Source of the DNA: a bacterium
Lineage (GTDB): Bacteria > Pseudomonadota > Alphaproteobacteria > Rs-D84
NCBI GenBank assembly: GCA_014803525.1
Contig: JAAVBP010000005.1
Location: 1 to 64,000 of the forward strand
DNA length: 64,000 nt
Reading direction: 5' to 3'
Numbering within the stretch: position 1 is the stretch's first letter; each line of letters begins with the position of its first letter. The translations under genes were made by a program, and so were the position numbers. The notes below the pieces were generated by a model that saw only the letters and a list, made by a program, of their open reading frames with translations, did not search any database and was not told the origin of the DNA. This document shows, piece by piece, positions 70 to 62,339 of the stretch.

Positions 70-237
70 GCCACCCCCCCGATGGCATTCGCCATCATCC
101 CCCCCCCGCAGTCCACCCACAAAAACATTCGTTTTTGCGGGGCCCAGAAACGGCGGTGGGAATTAGTACGTTCACAGCTCGGGCTAATGCCCCCCGCCCG
201 GGCGGGGGCTGGCGTGTGAAACACGACTGGGGGTGGC
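70..237. mobile_element. 168-bp non-autonomous relative of the queH element
   Basis: Same TIR type (gccacccccc...gggggtggc) and shared core 'cacccacaaaaacattcgtttttgcggggccc.gaaacggcggtgggaatt'. Confidence 0.6.
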
Positions 238-348
238 CAATATTTACTGGATTGCCACGCCCTGTGGACTCGCAATGACAGTAAAGATAACTTTTTCACT
301 CTCTCACTATTAACTGTTTCACTAAAAAAACGCCCGATTGGGCGATTT

Positions 349-12097: not shown

Positions 12098-13564
12098 TTA
12101 TTTCCATGCCGCCGGTATATCCGCATAATCATCCAGCCCTGTATCGCCAAGATAACACCCTCCAACCTGGACGCTTGTTGCACTTGGCCAGATTTTATAT
12201 AAATATTTGCCATTTATTTTTGCAGATGGCCCCGTCAGGGATGTGCCATTACAAAACATACAAAAAAACATACTCCTTTGCGCCGCGCCAGATATATTGC
12301 CGAACAGGTTTTCTGGGATGGATGTCAGGCCGCTGCATTTATAAAATGTGTATACAAACATATCCTCTGCCGGGGCGCCAGATATCCCCGCAAACAGGTT
12401 TTCGGGAATCGGCCCCGTCAGACCGCTACATTCATAAAATGTGCCATAGAACATACTGGACGCAGGCGCGCCAGATATCCCCGCAAACAGATTTCCCGGG
12501 ATCGAACCAGAAAGATTGCTGCATCCAGAAAATGTTTTATGGAACATACCCATCGCCGGGGCACCAGATATCCTTGCAAATAACTTTTCCGGGATCGAAC
12601 CAGTAAGGCCGCTGCATCCGGAAAATGTTTCTTTGAACATATACCATTCCGGTTTGCCAGATATCCCCGCAAACAGGTTTTCCGGAATCGGACCCGTCAG
12701 ACCGCGGCAGCTAGAAAACGTGCCATAGAACATACTTGATGCTGGCGCACCAGATATCCCCGCAAACAGGTTTTCCGGAATCGGACCCGTCAGACCGCGG
12801 CAGCTAGAAAACGTGCCACAGAACATACTTGATGCCGGCGCACCAGATATCCCCGCAAACAGGTTTTCCGGGATCGAACCGGAAAGGTTGCTGCATCCAG
12901 AAAATGTTCTATAAAATCTTGGCTGTTGGCCACTTTGCGCCCCATCGCCAATTGTTGAAAATATCGCCCCAAGGGCCCCTGATATCCCTGCAACATTGGT
13001 ATTGCTCCAAAATGATATCGCGGCGATAGCAGGTTTCGTGTTGTATTCCATGGCGCGTCCGCCAATACCGATGGTGCGGGCACCGGCGGCGCTGTATGTG
13101 TGACTATATGTTGTTTCACTTGTGTCGGTACGCTTGATTATATCGCGTGTGCCGTCACCCCAATCAATCATAAACGTACCACGCGCAGACATTTTAAAGC
13201 TAAAACTGGATGTGGTTGACGTTGTTGTCACAAAAAACTTTGGCGACCAATCGACTATCAATCGTGAAACAGCATCATTTGCCGCGACGGTATCGGCCGC
13301 GTACTGTGTGGCATATTCACTGTGCAGGTAATCCGTGGTCGCAGTGCCGTTTAGTCTTTTATTCGTGATATCCACCATCCCCAGCAAGTATTCCATATTT
13401 GCCGCAACCTTTGGGTTCGTGACAGATGGATTGTACGGTACAGTTATGCCCCATTTTTGTTCAATCAACAGGTGGATGTATTCTACATTAACCATTTCGG
13501 CGGCGCGCGCAGAATTACAAAACAAACAGCCCACAAAACCCAATAAAATTAATAATTTGCGCAT
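12098..13564 (-). CDS. secreted BspA-like repeat surface protein
   Basis: Signal peptide, PKD-like 'FMIDWGDGTRDIIKRTDTSETTYSHTYSAAGARTIGI', then about seven 31-aa repeats 'IPENLFAGISGAPASSMFYGTFSSCRGLTGP'. Confidence 0.8.
   Translation of the reverse strand: MRKLLILLGFVGCLFCNSARAAEMVNVEYIHLLIEQKWGITVPYNPSVTNPKVAANMEYLLGMVDITNKRLNGTATTDYLHSEYATQYAADTVAANDAVSRLIVDWSPKFFVTTTSTTSSFSFKMSARGTFMIDWGDGTRDIIKRTDTSETTYSHTYSAAGARTIGIGGRAMEYNTKPAIAAISFWSNTNVAGISGALGAIFSTIGDGAQSGQQPRFYRTFSGCSNLSGSIPENLFAGISGAPASSMFCGTFSSCRGLTGPIPENLFAGISGAPASSMFYGTFSSCRGLTGPIPENLFAGISGKPEWYMFKETFSGCSGLTGSIPEKLFARISGAPAMGMFHKTFSGCSNLSGSIPGNLFAGISGAPASSMFYGTFYECSGLTGPIPENLFAGISGAPAEDMFVYTFYKCSGLTSIPENLFGNISGAAQRSMFFCMFCNGTSLTGPSAKINGKYLYKIWPSATSVQVGGCYLGDTGLDDYADIPAAWK
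12661..12939 (-). repeat. near-identical 93-bp tandem repeats inside the BspA-like gene
   Basis: 'atatccccgcaaacaggttttcc...' recurs at 12661, 12754, 12847 (93-bp period = 31 codons). Confidence 0.85.
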
Positions 13565-21824: not shown

Positions 21825-21986
21825 AAAAAGCCATCTGATGATCAGATGGCTGGAGCTTGAACACTATAATCACCGGAAAATAGCGTGTGTTATTCAATAT
21901 ATTCCACACACTCCAACCAACGGATTGGAGTTTTTCGTCCGTACAGTAATCCTGTCCCAGACGCCGATGAGTTATGGGTGTTCAAG
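21825..21986 (-). ncRNA. structured leader RNA copy D (divergent member of the family)
   Basis: CTTGAACAC/GTGTTCAAG closing stem, CTCCAA..TTGGAG hairpin, GTGTGGAATATATTGAATAACACAC apical hairpin, AGCCATCTGAT..ATCAGATGGCT terminator with U-run. Confidence 0.65.
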
Positions 21987-33325: not shown

Positions 33326-33477
33326 TTCGCCCCCATGGAAACGTATGAATATAATGCGCATGGGCGGTTCTTAGATAAGTGGCCGTAAAGCACTTTCTGG
33401 ATTGCCATGTCGGAAATAATTTCTCCTTTTTATCTATTTCACTAATAAAAATCCCCGGCATTTGGCGGGGATTTTTA

Positions 33478-33726
33478 TTATTTACGCATATATGGTGGAA
33501 TCCAACCGTCATCAAACAGTTGCTTTATATATTCTGCGTCCTGGCCGACGGCGTGCATAAATTGATACAGTTGATATACACTTATTGTAACAATGCCCTT
33601 TTCCAGGGCGAAATACACGCCCGGCGAAATGTGCATTTTGTTGGCAACCTTTTGTGGCATTAATCCCTTGCGCGCACGCCGCATATGTTTTTTTAGTTTA
33701 TCTTGAAATTCGACTTCTGTTTTCAT
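33478..33726 (-). CDS. XRE-like helix-turn-helix protein, copy 1
   Basis: 82 aa, 'MPQKVANKMHISPGVYFALEKGIVTISVYQLYQFMHAVG'; nearly identical to 61380-61628. Confidence 0.65.
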   Translation of the reverse strand: MKTEVEFQDKLKKHMRRARKGLMPQKVANKMHISPGVYFALEKGIVTISVYQLYQFMHAVGQDAEYIKQLFDDGWIPPYMRK

Positions 33727-33742
33727 TGTATTCCTCCGTTAT

Positions 33743-33934
33743 AAAAAATTCCGCATTGATGAGATGCGGTTGGAGGTTGAGAACTACTGTCAGGAGTAGT
33801 GTTGCTTATTCAATATATTCGCAACCCTCCAACCACCGTTGGAGTAATGATTCCTGACAAAATTGGTTCTCACACCTCGCATCGGTCATCACCCGATGCA
33901 GGGGTATTATAACGGATTAAAATACCATTTGCAA
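33743..33934 (-). ncRNA. structured leader RNA copy C with its own promoter
   Basis: TTGCAA-17-TATAAT promoter (33929-33934/33906-33911), hairpin 33879-33899, conserved core, terminator 33751-33769. Confidence 0.75.
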
Positions 33935-34034
33935 ATTATTTACTGGATTGCTTCACTGCGTTCGCGACGACAGCGATGAGCCATCTGAACACTGAACACT
34001 AAAAAACCCGGTGTTTACCGGGATTTTTATGACC

Positions 34035-41314: not shown

Positions 41315-42493
41315 ATGAAACTGGTGTTGGTATCTTGCTGTGCACCGTGCAGTGCGGGCGCGATAAAGCAACTGGCGGATGGCGCTATCCCGGACGTGGA
41401 TGACTTTGTCGTGCTGTTCTTTAATCCGAATATTTATCCCGCGGCCGAATACGAAAAACGCATGGCGGAACAGATAAGATATTGCGAGCAACTGGGCGTG
41501 CGTCACATAGAACTGGAATACGACCACGATGCATGGCGCGATGCGGTGCGCGGACTGGAAAATGAACCCGAACGCGGTGCCCGGTGCAGCTTGTGTTTTG
41601 AATATCGATTCGCCCGCGCGGCGGCTTGGGCACGCGAAAATGGTTATGACGCGGTAACATCAGTGCTTGGCGTGTCACGGCACAAGGACCAGGCCCAGGT
41701 TGATCGTGCCGGAGTTCGGGCCGTTGCATCGGCCACCCCCCGTCATGTCACAGACATGCCACCCCCCGCCAAGGGCGGTGGGAATTACCATGTGCCGCGT
41801 TATACGCAATTCGCGCTACAACAATCCAAAACATTAAAACGTAATATGACTGATGCAGAAAGATTGTTGTGGCATTATCTGCGTGGGCGTCGTGATTTCT
41901 CGTTTCGTAAACAGGCACCAATCGGAAATTATATTGTAGATTTCGTATGCTTATCGAAAAAGCTTATTATTGAGCTGGACGGCGCACAGCATGGAGATGC
42001 CACCGGTCGCGTACATGACACGGCGCGGGATAAGTTTTTGCACGACGCCGGATACAGAGTTCTGCGCTTCTGGAATGACGAAGTTTTTAAAAATATGGAT
42101 ATGGTGTTGGATACGATATATCGGTATTTAGCCACCCCCAGTCAGGCTGTGCCTGACAGCCCCCGCCCGGGCGGGGGCCATTGCGCCGAAGACCGCAATT
42201 TAAATTCGTATTCCAGAGCCCAAATTCCCCCCGCAATCCACCCACAAAAACATTCGTTTTTGCGGGGCCCGGAAACGGCGGTGGGAATTGGTGCGTTCCA
42301 GGCTCGGGCTGAATTGCCCCCGTCCGGGCGGGGGCTGTCGCCAAGGGCGACTGGGGGTGGCCCTGCGACTGAGCCCGATATTAAATACATCCCTATAAAA
42401 TGGGACGAGGGCCTGCGTCAACAAATCGGACGCGCGTCGGACTTTTACCGCCAGAATTATTGCGGTTGCGAATTTAGTATTCGAAAAGTATAA
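41315..42493 (+). CDS. queH: epoxyqueuosine reductase QueH interrupted in frame by a DUF559-encoding element
   Basis: N-part 'MKLVLVSCCAPCSAGAIKQL...VSRHKDQAQVDRAG' and C-part 'YIPIKWDEGLRQQIGRASDFYRQNYCGCEFS' are QueH; the middle 210 codons are foreign. Confidence 0.85.
   Translation: MKLVLVSCCAPCSAGAIKQLADGAIPDVDDFVVLFFNPNIYPAAEYEKRMAEQIRYCEQLGVRHIELEYDHDAWRDAVRGLENEPERGARCSLCFEYRFARAAAWARENGYDAVTSVLGVSRHKDQAQVDRAGVRAVASATPRHVTDMPPPAKGGGNYHVPRYTQFALQQSKTLKRNMTDAERLLWHYLRGRRDFSFRKQAPIGNYIVDFVCLSKKLIIELDGAQHGDATGRVHDTARDKFLHDAGYRVLRFWNDEVFKNMDMVLDTIYRYLATPSQAVPDSPRPGGGHCAEDRNLNSYSRAQIPPAIHPQKHSFLRGPETAVGIGAFQARAELPPSGRGLSPRATGGGPATEPDIKYIPIKWDEGLRQQIGRASDFYRQNYCGCEFSIRKV
41732..42361 (+). 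mobile_element. 630-bp in-frame element with GCCACCCCC/GGGGGTGGC terminal inverted repeats carrying a DUF559 nuclease-like domain
   Basis: TIRs at 41732-41740 and 42353-42361; 'NMTDAERLLWHYLRGRRDFSFRKQAPIGNYIVDFVCLSKKLIIELDGAQH...LRFWNDEVF' is DUF559; 3' half matches the 70-237 repeat. Confidence 0.7.
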
Positions 42494-46708: not shown

Positions 46709-46789
46709 AAAAAGCCCCGTCGGGGGCGTTTTTTTAGTGAAAGAATTAAACAGTGAAAGAGTGAAAAAGTTGTTCGTGCTGGATTCGTA

Positions 46790-46970
46790 ATAATGCCCAC
46801 CGCCGTTCCCGGGCCCCGCAAAAACGAATGTTTTTGTGGGTGGACTGCGGGGGGATGATGGCGAATGCCATCGGGGGGGGCAAGTGTTGCGAAATACAAG
46901 CTGGCCACCCCCAGTCGTGTTTCACACGCCAGCCCCCGCCCGGGCGAGGGCAATTCGTCCGTGCCAGGAA
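46790..46970. repeat. partial, permuted copies of the same GC-rich repeat
   Basis: 46790-46880 and 46898-46970 match reverse complement of the two halves of the 70-237 element, in swapped order. Confidence 0.6.
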
Positions 46971-47007
46971 CGTATTCAAGTTCTCATCATGTGCTGAGGG
47001 GGCGCGA

Positions 47008-47135: not shown

Positions 47136-47166
47136 GGATAACAACCGTGGCAATCCAGTAAATAAT

Positions 47167-47352
47167 TTGCTTTTCCAAAAACAATCCGATATAATGTACA
47201 TTGCATCGGGTGATGACCGATGCGAGGTGTAGGAACCTTGGTAATCAAAAAACTCCAACCGTGGTTGGAGGGTTGCGAATATATTGAATAAGCAACACTA
47301 TTGATTACATAGTTCCTAACCTCCAACCGCATCTCATCAATGCGGTATTTTT
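47167..47352 (+). ncRNA. structured leader RNA copy A with its own promoter and terminator
   Basis: TTGCTT(47167)-17-TATAAT(47190); hairpin 47203-47223; P1 TAGGAAC/GTTCCTA; P2 GTAATCA/TGATTAC; P3 CTCCAACC/GGTTGGAG; loop GAATATATTGAATAA; terminator 47327-47345. Confidence 0.78.
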
Positions 47353-47384
47353 AATTTGGTTTAACAGAACAAAGAAAGAATGCT

Positions 47385-61134: not shown

Positions 61135-61169
61135 GGTATTATTATACCGTGGCAATTAGGTCAAATAAT

Positions 61170-61352
61170 TTGCAAATCTGAAAACAATCCGATATAATAT
61201 TCAATGCATCGGGTGATGACCGATGCGAGGTGTCATAACCTCATGCAATAATCTCCAACTACGGTTGGAGGGCCGCGAATATATTGAATAAGCGCACTAC
61301 CATTGCAGTAGTTATGAACCTCCAACCGCTTATCATCAAAGCGGGCTTTTTA
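61170..61352 (+). ncRNA. structured leader RNA copy B with its own promoter and terminator
   Basis: TTGCAA(61170)-17-TATAAT(61193); hairpin 61206-61226; P1 TCATAAC/GTTATGA; P2 TGCAAT/ATTGCA; core; terminator 61326-61344. Confidence 0.78.
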
Positions 61353-61379
61353 TTTGCAAAAAGATTAAGGAGGCAAAAA

Positions 61380-61628
61380 ATGAAAACAGAAGTCGAATTT
61401 CAAGATAAACTAAAAAAACATATGCGGCGTGCGCGCAAGGGATTAATGCCACAAAAAGTTGCCAACAAAATGCACATTTCGCCGGGCGTGTATTTTGCCC
61501 TGGAAAAGGGCATTGTTACAATAAGTGCATATCAACTGTATCAATTTATGCACGCCGCCGGCCAAGATGCGGAATATATAAAGCAACTGTTTGATGATGG
61601 TTGGATTCCACCATATATGCGAAAATAA
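61380..61628 (+). CDS. XRE-like helix-turn-helix protein, copy 2
   Basis: 82 aa; differs from 33478-33726 product at two residues; SD aaggagg; downstream terminator also conserved. Confidence 0.65.
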   Translation: MKTEVEFQDKLKKHMRRARKGLMPQKVANKMHISPGVYFALEKGIVTISAYQLYQFMHAAGQDAEYIKQLFDDGWIPPYMRK

Positions 61629-61658
61629 TAAAAATCCCCGGAAAATGCCGGGGATTTT

Positions 61659-62339
61659 TTAAAACAAAATAAAATTGTTTTTAAATGCCTCGTTCAGGGC
61701 ATCACGTACCTCGCCCGTGGCGAGTCCCCCGCCCCGCAAAAACTCAATTTCGGCCGGTCCTGGCCGGTAAATTGATGCACTGTGGCCGGCCGATTCTGGC
61801 ACAGATGAAATATATTGCGCCGGCATAAATTCGACACGTGCGGATTCCGCGCACATCGCAGAAAACCCGATATCAGACCGGCAATTTTCACAATTTTTTC
61901 GAATCTCGGCGGCACCTGATATTTTGGATATTGAATTTTCCCCGGCCAAAACGTTGGTTTTCATCAAAATGCCGGTGTTTTCCGATAAATGTTGACCCAC
62001 GCATTCAAAATTTAAACTGTTGTTATTTTCCAGTAAAATATGCCCGCGTATTTCAGAATTTTTCCCGGCATTTTTGATAAAAATGTTAAAAAAGGCCGGC
62101 AATTTATTTTTTACGCGAACGTCTAAAAAGACCGGCTGATCGGTGGCGGTTATTTCGATATCCAACCGGCATTTACCGGCAATTTCGCCGACATATATAA
62201 TATGCACCGGCAGGTCGTACTTTATATCAATTGGACCGTTCGCCAATGTTGATAATTCCGCCGCATATTCGCCATCGCGGTAGACAATCGTCTCCGCCGG
62301 CCAGGTTTTTATATTGAATTCGTTCCACATGTATGACAT
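61659..62339 (-). CDS. SufB/SufD-like protein, short
   Basis: C-terminal 'AGHSASIYRPGPAEIEFLRGGGLATGEVRDALNEAF' resembles SufD tail; beta-helix-like body. Confidence 0.5.
   Translation of the reverse strand: MSYMWNEFNIKTWPAETIVYRDGEYAAELSTLANGPIDIKYDLPVHIIYVGEIAGKCRLDIEITATDQPVFLDVRVKNKLPAFFNIFIKNAGKNSEIRGHILLENNNSLNFECVGQHLSENTGILMKTNVLAGENSISKISGAAEIRKNCENCRSDIGFSAMCAESARVEFMPAQYISSVPESAGHSASIYRPGPAEIEFLRGGGLATGEVRDALNEAFKNNFILF

Follow-up and report, generated by a model that had tools for sequence, protein, structure and literature searches.

A palindromic element with a DUF559 nuclease domain, inserted in frame in queH, may belong to a widespread type of mobile element residing in host proteins

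The window, that is the whole stretch of 64,000 nucleotides analysed, derives from an alphaproteobacterial genome (G000; 1.08 Mb in 27 contigs) and contains an open reading frame at 41315-42493 on the forward strand, which stays open along 392 amino acids and encodes QueH interrupted by a DUF559 domain (Table 1). Pfam assigns residues 3-140 to QueH (E 2e-44) and residues 169-272 to DUF559 (PF04480; E 5e-37; 126.6 bits, above the curated cut-off of 20.6), and the C-terminus of QueH is recovered as a separate profile match. The interruption of 630 bp has no stop in the queH frame and is bounded by a 14-bp inverted repeat of 93% identity (41731-41744 / 42349-42362). It contains three REP-like double hairpins, one located 5' of the DUF559 domain and two 3' of it, the last one being inverted. 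The cysteine motifs SCCAPC, CSLC, and YCGC of QueH are all kept in the translated fusion. Translation bears out the initial annotation of this locus with respect to both the open frame of 392 residues and the retained cysteines.

Insertion-free QueH proteins of the same genus continue across the insertion point in the alignment, which lies in the short and variable loop that separates VDxA from Y(I/L)PIKW. The annotation had described the insert as precisely 630 bp long. An in-frame insert of this length stands, but its exact boundary does not: after deletion of the 210 codons the QueH loop is still approximately 6-7 residues longer than in the empty relatives, as counted on the alignment, and the ends of the insert are therefore uncertain. 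The evidence that queH holds an insertion is comparative and comes from alignment with these relatives. The stop-free frame was dropped as an argument for insertion, because dinucleotide-shuffled insert flanks also stay open in the queH frame in 25% of the shuffles.

Table 1. The interrupted queH gene and related palindromes in the window.
Feature	Position	Strand	Basis
Palindrome-family member without nuclease	74..240		Repeat searches in the window
queH N-terminal part (host)	41315..41731	+	Pfam QueH, residues 3-140
In-frame insert, 630 bp, ends approximate	41732..42361	+	14-bp inverted terminal repeat; missing from relatives' empty QueH
Left REP-like double hairpin	41732..41786	+	Fold of 41731-41787; belongs to the dispersed family
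DUF559 nuclease domain	41816..42130	+	PF04480, E 3.5e-38, whole-genome search; sole DUF559 of the genome
Second REP-like double hairpin, oriented as the left one	42131..42182	+	Shuffle z -3.8; repeat D11 with 46904-46955
Repeat variant of the dispersed palindrome family, between the last two hairpins	42226..42289	+	92-97% identical to copies elsewhere in the genome
Terminal REP-like double hairpin, inverted	42311..42361	-	Shuffle z -2.9; inverted repeat I9 with 42131-42143
queH C-terminal part (host) and stop	42362..42493	+	QueH Pfam match at 42368-42484
Palindrome-family member without nuclease	46775..46974		Repeat searches in the window

Bacterial genomes commonly contain palindromic repeats. 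Comparison of the insert region with the whole genome of G000 yielded 42 matches, which represent about 10 sites outside queH. The sites inspected look intergenic and consist of inverted double hairpins that occur in pairs or clusters and lack DUF559; some are overlapped by short ORFs, none of which resembles a conserved gene. Judging from searches of 162 genus genomes, this palindrome family occurs essentially only in this species: the 127-bp palindrome unit matched G000 and a 27-bp stretch of one other genome. A PF04480 search of the whole genome retrieved a single DUF559 gene, the copy in queH. Because the sole DUF559 is located in queH and the palindromes are dispersed, the nuclease lies inside the repeat family that spread in this species. 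REPs driven by a RAYT were rejected as an explanation, since the Y1 transposase (PF01797) is missing from G000; two of the 162 genus genomes have one.

The nearest relatives of G000 in the comparison are genomes of the same genus with sizes of 0.6-1.1 Mb; the analysis is comparative throughout, and most of the genomes are MAGs. QueH is present in 156 of the 162 genomes, and in five of these (G000, G046, G059, G177, and G195, where the copy is broken by a contig end) it contains DUF559. The QueH of G171 carries a palindrome-only insert with identical point and ends. A search for empty-site alleles, as proposed in the initial annotation, found about 150 of the 156 QueH proteins without an insert. 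A stable domain in all close relatives, which would have spoken against a mobile element, disagrees with these counts, and the polymorphism of the DUF559 insert among relatives supports the annotation's view of an in-frame mobile element with a nuclease-like domain. The fusion of G177 also occurs in the MAG CALXXD010000001.1 (L228; uncultured Alphaproteobacteria bacterium). When the loci of G046 (L065, approximately 1380-2110) and G059 (L066) are compared, identity is about 70% up to the vicinity of the element's left edge, where it rises to about 100% and stays at that level through the contig end. This step could be homing-like co-conversion or a chimeric contig, and no conclusion is built upon it.

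DUF559 is also found in frame inside QueA in about 26 genomes of the genus (one case was confirmed as QueA by profile), either in the loop after RDASRMLVV or in the loop after TLESA, and both loops are filled in G028, G052, and G108. Palindrome-only inserts seem to be present in QueA as well, most clearly in G021. Altogether, 35 of the 79 DUF559 copies of the genus are embedded in host proteins. All QueH copies form one clade in the DUF559 tree, which comprises only 105 columns and has many forks without support; queH was thus perhaps hit only once. The QueA-1 and QueA-2 labels need nine changes each in this tree, of which at least six are forced by starred branches, and the QueA loops are occupied by two distinct DUF559 lineages. 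G108 and G013 share an identical cassette in QueA host parts that are only 87% identical, whereas a further pair combines 93% identity of the hosts with 63% identity of the cassettes. It follows from this mismatch between hosts and cassettes that cassettes have been exchanged at fixed sites. DUF559 has moved between the two QueA sites repeatedly. Several QueA contigs stop at the insertion site, as repeats break MAG contigs. At one locus (L211, G043:C7), QueA is split into two pieces that overlap around unresolved bases, and the downstream piece begins with a different QueA-like sequence, which is probably a scaffold error of the assembly.

A scan of species-representative genomes extended the range of hosts. 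Among the best 80 of more than 550 DUF559 loci, ranked by similarity and hence not a random sample, 14 show in-frame embedding. The hosts are PriA (four times), an MpaA-like amidase (three times), Mfd, ValS, a TIGR03960 radical-SAM protein, HydF, PrmA, IspE, and QueH, each identified by profile except L232, which resembles L262, and L228, which equals the QueH of G177. Organism names were taken from record titles, and some genomes may be mis-binned. Counting QueA, DUF559 is embedded in at least ten host protein families. The initial annotation, which treated the element as a feature of a single locus, is supported in part and incomplete beyond queH: the flanking palindromes are dispersed in G000, and DUF559 recurs in these families and is flanked by such palindromes across bacteria. 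In a member of the Rickettsiales (AM-377-L16; L234), a 1460-aa Mfd carries DUF559 together with a long in-frame array of translated palindromes (NPLPKEGEG..., SLSLFGERV...).

The flanks of DUF559 were assessed by the best local alignment of the upstream flank with the reverse complement of the downstream flank, and windows of the same geometry elsewhere in the loci served as control. Of 83 copies, almost all of them from the genus, 68 scored above the 99th percentile of the control windows (medians 47 versus 19), as did 55 of the 74 named loci, which represent many phyla. Overall, approximately 75-80% of the sampled DUF559 copies are located between inverted palindromes, as compared to 1% of control windows, which are not matched small mobile genes. 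A flank-swap control, with 22 of 83 copies above its 99th percentile, is very strict because different loci have palindromes in common, and the windows from the same locus were therefore used as main control. Standalone copies show the inverted arrangement plainly, and the link between DUF559 and palindromes recurs while the palindrome sequences differ between phyla. However, not all DUF559 genes are mobile, since some, such as that of Phytobacter (L300), lack palindromes in their flanks. A perfect 54-bp direct repeat abuts both ends of one standalone element (L098; 1419-1876 on the gene's strand); this is far above the usual length of target-site duplications. Abutting direct repeats of 54 and 58 bp occur at L078 and L148, which apparently represent one insertion, and a repeat of about 85 bp lies at a distance from the element in L142. 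No target duplication was found at queH or in most elements with definable ends. Target-site duplication was rejected as a general signature: abutting repeats of 54-58 bp are confined to three standalone loci, of which two probably go back to a single event, and the repeats at standalone elements are no more than suggestive of such duplications.

At the protein level, the putative catalytic residues E15, D42, E53, D55, and H59 are present in the queH copy and in almost every one of the 164 copies compared. Among the embedded DUF559 domains, the first four are kept in 49 of 49 and H59 in 48. Comparison of G177 with G046 or G059 gave dN/dS values of approximately 0.13-0.14 for the QueH-embedded DUF559 and a similar value of 0.10 for the C-terminal part of QueH, whereas values against G000 are near saturation. 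From these ratios, both the embedded domain and the host enzyme look to be under purifying selection. The AlphaFold2 model of the fusion shows two confident domains and low-confidence linkers (145-161 and 281-346), and thus predicts two intact domains on disordered linkers. Its QueH part matches the structure 7lc5. The DUF559 part matches a DUF559 entry (3hrl) and the homing endonuclease I-Bth0305I (3r3p_B; E 6.5e-4; TM 0.68 by target length).

We consider it probable that the queH insert is a palindromic mobile element that encodes DUF559 and is tolerated as an unspliced additional domain. An element of REP-like palindromes around a DUF559 gene would have entered queH in frame at a tolerant surface loop and would be translated through, with nothing being spliced, so that the nuclease becomes part of QueH as a further domain. 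We infer that the fused 392-aa QueH is active and that DUF559 itself confers mobility. The nuclease, which is of the Vsr/EDxHD type, would nick or cut DNA at palindromes or empty target loops, and subsequent repair would place copies of the palindromes, at times together with the complete nuclease cassette, at new sites. Insertions that keep the frame in a loop of a useful gene would persist because they are tolerated and because imprecise loss is impossible. Such cutting and copying would account for the dispersed nuclease-less copies in this genome and for the repeated filling of the QueA loops, and this model would also explain the residence in PriA, Mfd, and ValS, whence the element is not easily lost. 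The wider proposal, that RAYT-less palindromic repeats form a pan-bacterial class for which DUF559 is the dedicated mobilising nuclease, with autonomous copies able to persist in frame and unspliced in host proteins, has in our judgement about an even chance of being correct. Alternatively, DUF559 could be a passenger, a nuclease with a role in repair or defence that became trapped between REP-like palindromes whose spread depends on something else (homologous recombination, slippage, or an unknown transposase), and embedding would then reflect recombination between palindromes already in host loops. This would fit the palindrome-only inserts seen at this point of queH as well as in QueA, the excess of nuclease-less palindrome copies over the nuclease copy in this genome, the lack of target duplication at most elements, and the Vsr-like repair role of a Caulobacter DUF559 protein described in PMC12907096. 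However, no alternative enzyme of the RAYT kind was found in the genome, the association with palindromes recurs across phyla although the palindromes differ, and the embedded copies keep their catalytic residues. We regard a passenger role as rather unlikely, albeit not negligible.

The remaining explanations concern the fusion itself. Recruitment of DUF559 to QueH and QueA for tRNA-queuosine metabolism would be in line with its presence in two enzymes of one pathway in the genus and with the conservation of both the QueH and DUF559 parts. It is a poor candidate nevertheless, as the fusions are rare and scattered among relatives, two different QueA loops are used and sometimes both, the linkers derive from translated palindromes and have low predicted order, and hosts elsewhere are unrelated; a queuosine-specific fusion in particular is weakened by the copies embedded in unrelated proteins. 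A homing-endonuclease-like fold (that of I-Bth0305I) at a fixed site of a conserved enzyme is what a cryptic intein or intron, spliced out from the product, would lead one to expect. The absence of intein splice motifs noted in the initial annotation agrees with profile searches of the fusion, which gave no intein or Hint domain at E up to 1 (Pfam, NCBIfam). The best Rfam match had an E of 0.32, below its cut-off, and offers no support for an intron. All embedded cases that were retained have a frame free of stops across the insert, a property that an intron could do without. Splicing of either kind is highly improbable. That the fusion is an assembly artefact, a refutation envisaged by the annotation, has a next to vanishing probability. 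Repeats do break MAG contigs, as in several that terminate at the QueA site, and the G046 copy, which lies near a contig end, may be a chimera, but the fusion of G000 lies about 41 kb inside a 130-kb contig, and diverged fusions recur in the independent assemblies G059 (399-kb contig) and G177, in frame each time.

The proposed DUF559 element shares features with several known systems. REPs and Rickettsia palindromic elements (RPEs) inside genes are already known to occur in frame in unrelated protein genes, and the host proteins tolerate them (PMC10969869, PMC3733652). The queH insert likewise consists of palindromic repeats in frame within a protein-coding gene and justifies the likeness to RPEs drawn in the initial annotation, which refers to the insertion habit. 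The known intragenic repeats, however, encode a REP peptide of about 20-82 aa and no enzyme has been described in them, whereas the queH palindromes carry a complete nuclease domain. In REPtrons (REP plus RAYT/TnpA-REP) and REPINs, too, inverted REP-like palindromes enclose a nuclease-type gene and nuclease-less pairs are dispersed in the same genome, but their enzyme is a Y1 HUH transposase, which was not found in G000, instead of DUF559 with its Vsr/EDxHD fold. EDxHD/Vsr-like homing endonucleases such as I-Bth0305I and inteins with homing nucleases have a related fold and fixed sites in conserved proteins; the queH element differs in that no splicing domain or intron was found in it, that it is flanked by palindromes, and that it has dispersed nuclease-less copies. 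The described proteins of the same domain family (PF04480; NGO0050, structure 3hrl; Caulobacter VsrA) are free proteins, unlike the embedded DUF559 of queH. DUF559 has been characterised as a Vsr-like repair nuclease (PMC12907096), found with a transposase in repeated recombination hotspots of Legionella (PMC12308824), and related to EDxHD homing endonucleases (PMC9403480). The passages on DUF559 in the open-access literature contained no link to flanking palindromes, palindromic mobility, or embedding in host proteins. Relative to the open-access literature, a widespread type of mobile element living inside host proteins has thus apparently not been described before.

CGTC-type REPs, including RPE-4 and RPE-6, are stated to have no dedicated transposase (PMC3733652). 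DUF559 is a concrete and testable candidate for the enzyme that mobilises such palindromes, because it lies between inverted palindromes in most of the named loci and inside PriA, Mfd, and ValS. If this holds true, DUF559 would serve as a transposase-equivalent for palindromes that lack a known enzyme, and embedding would join inteins and introns as a third means by which nucleases hide inside conserved genes. The embedded copies also show that conserved proteins can accept whole nuclease domains, beyond short peptides, in frame and without splicing, which is relevant to protein evolution, genome annotation, and assembly breaks at such sites.

The window contains other repeats as well. An intergenic unit is found at 33441-33941 (-), 61163-61660 (+), and 47160-47356 (+), and partially at 1-66 and 21879-21922, with copies that are 80-95% identical and have conserved hairpins (GCATCGG..CCGATGC and CTCCAACC..GGTTGGAG). 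Two copies are located 5' of a small XRE-like ORF and the others are not. The unit had no match in Rfam; a structured leader RNA and a second mobile family are both conceivable. Finally, seven tandem coding-length repeats of 93 bp each, 67-78% alike, occupy 12284-12974.
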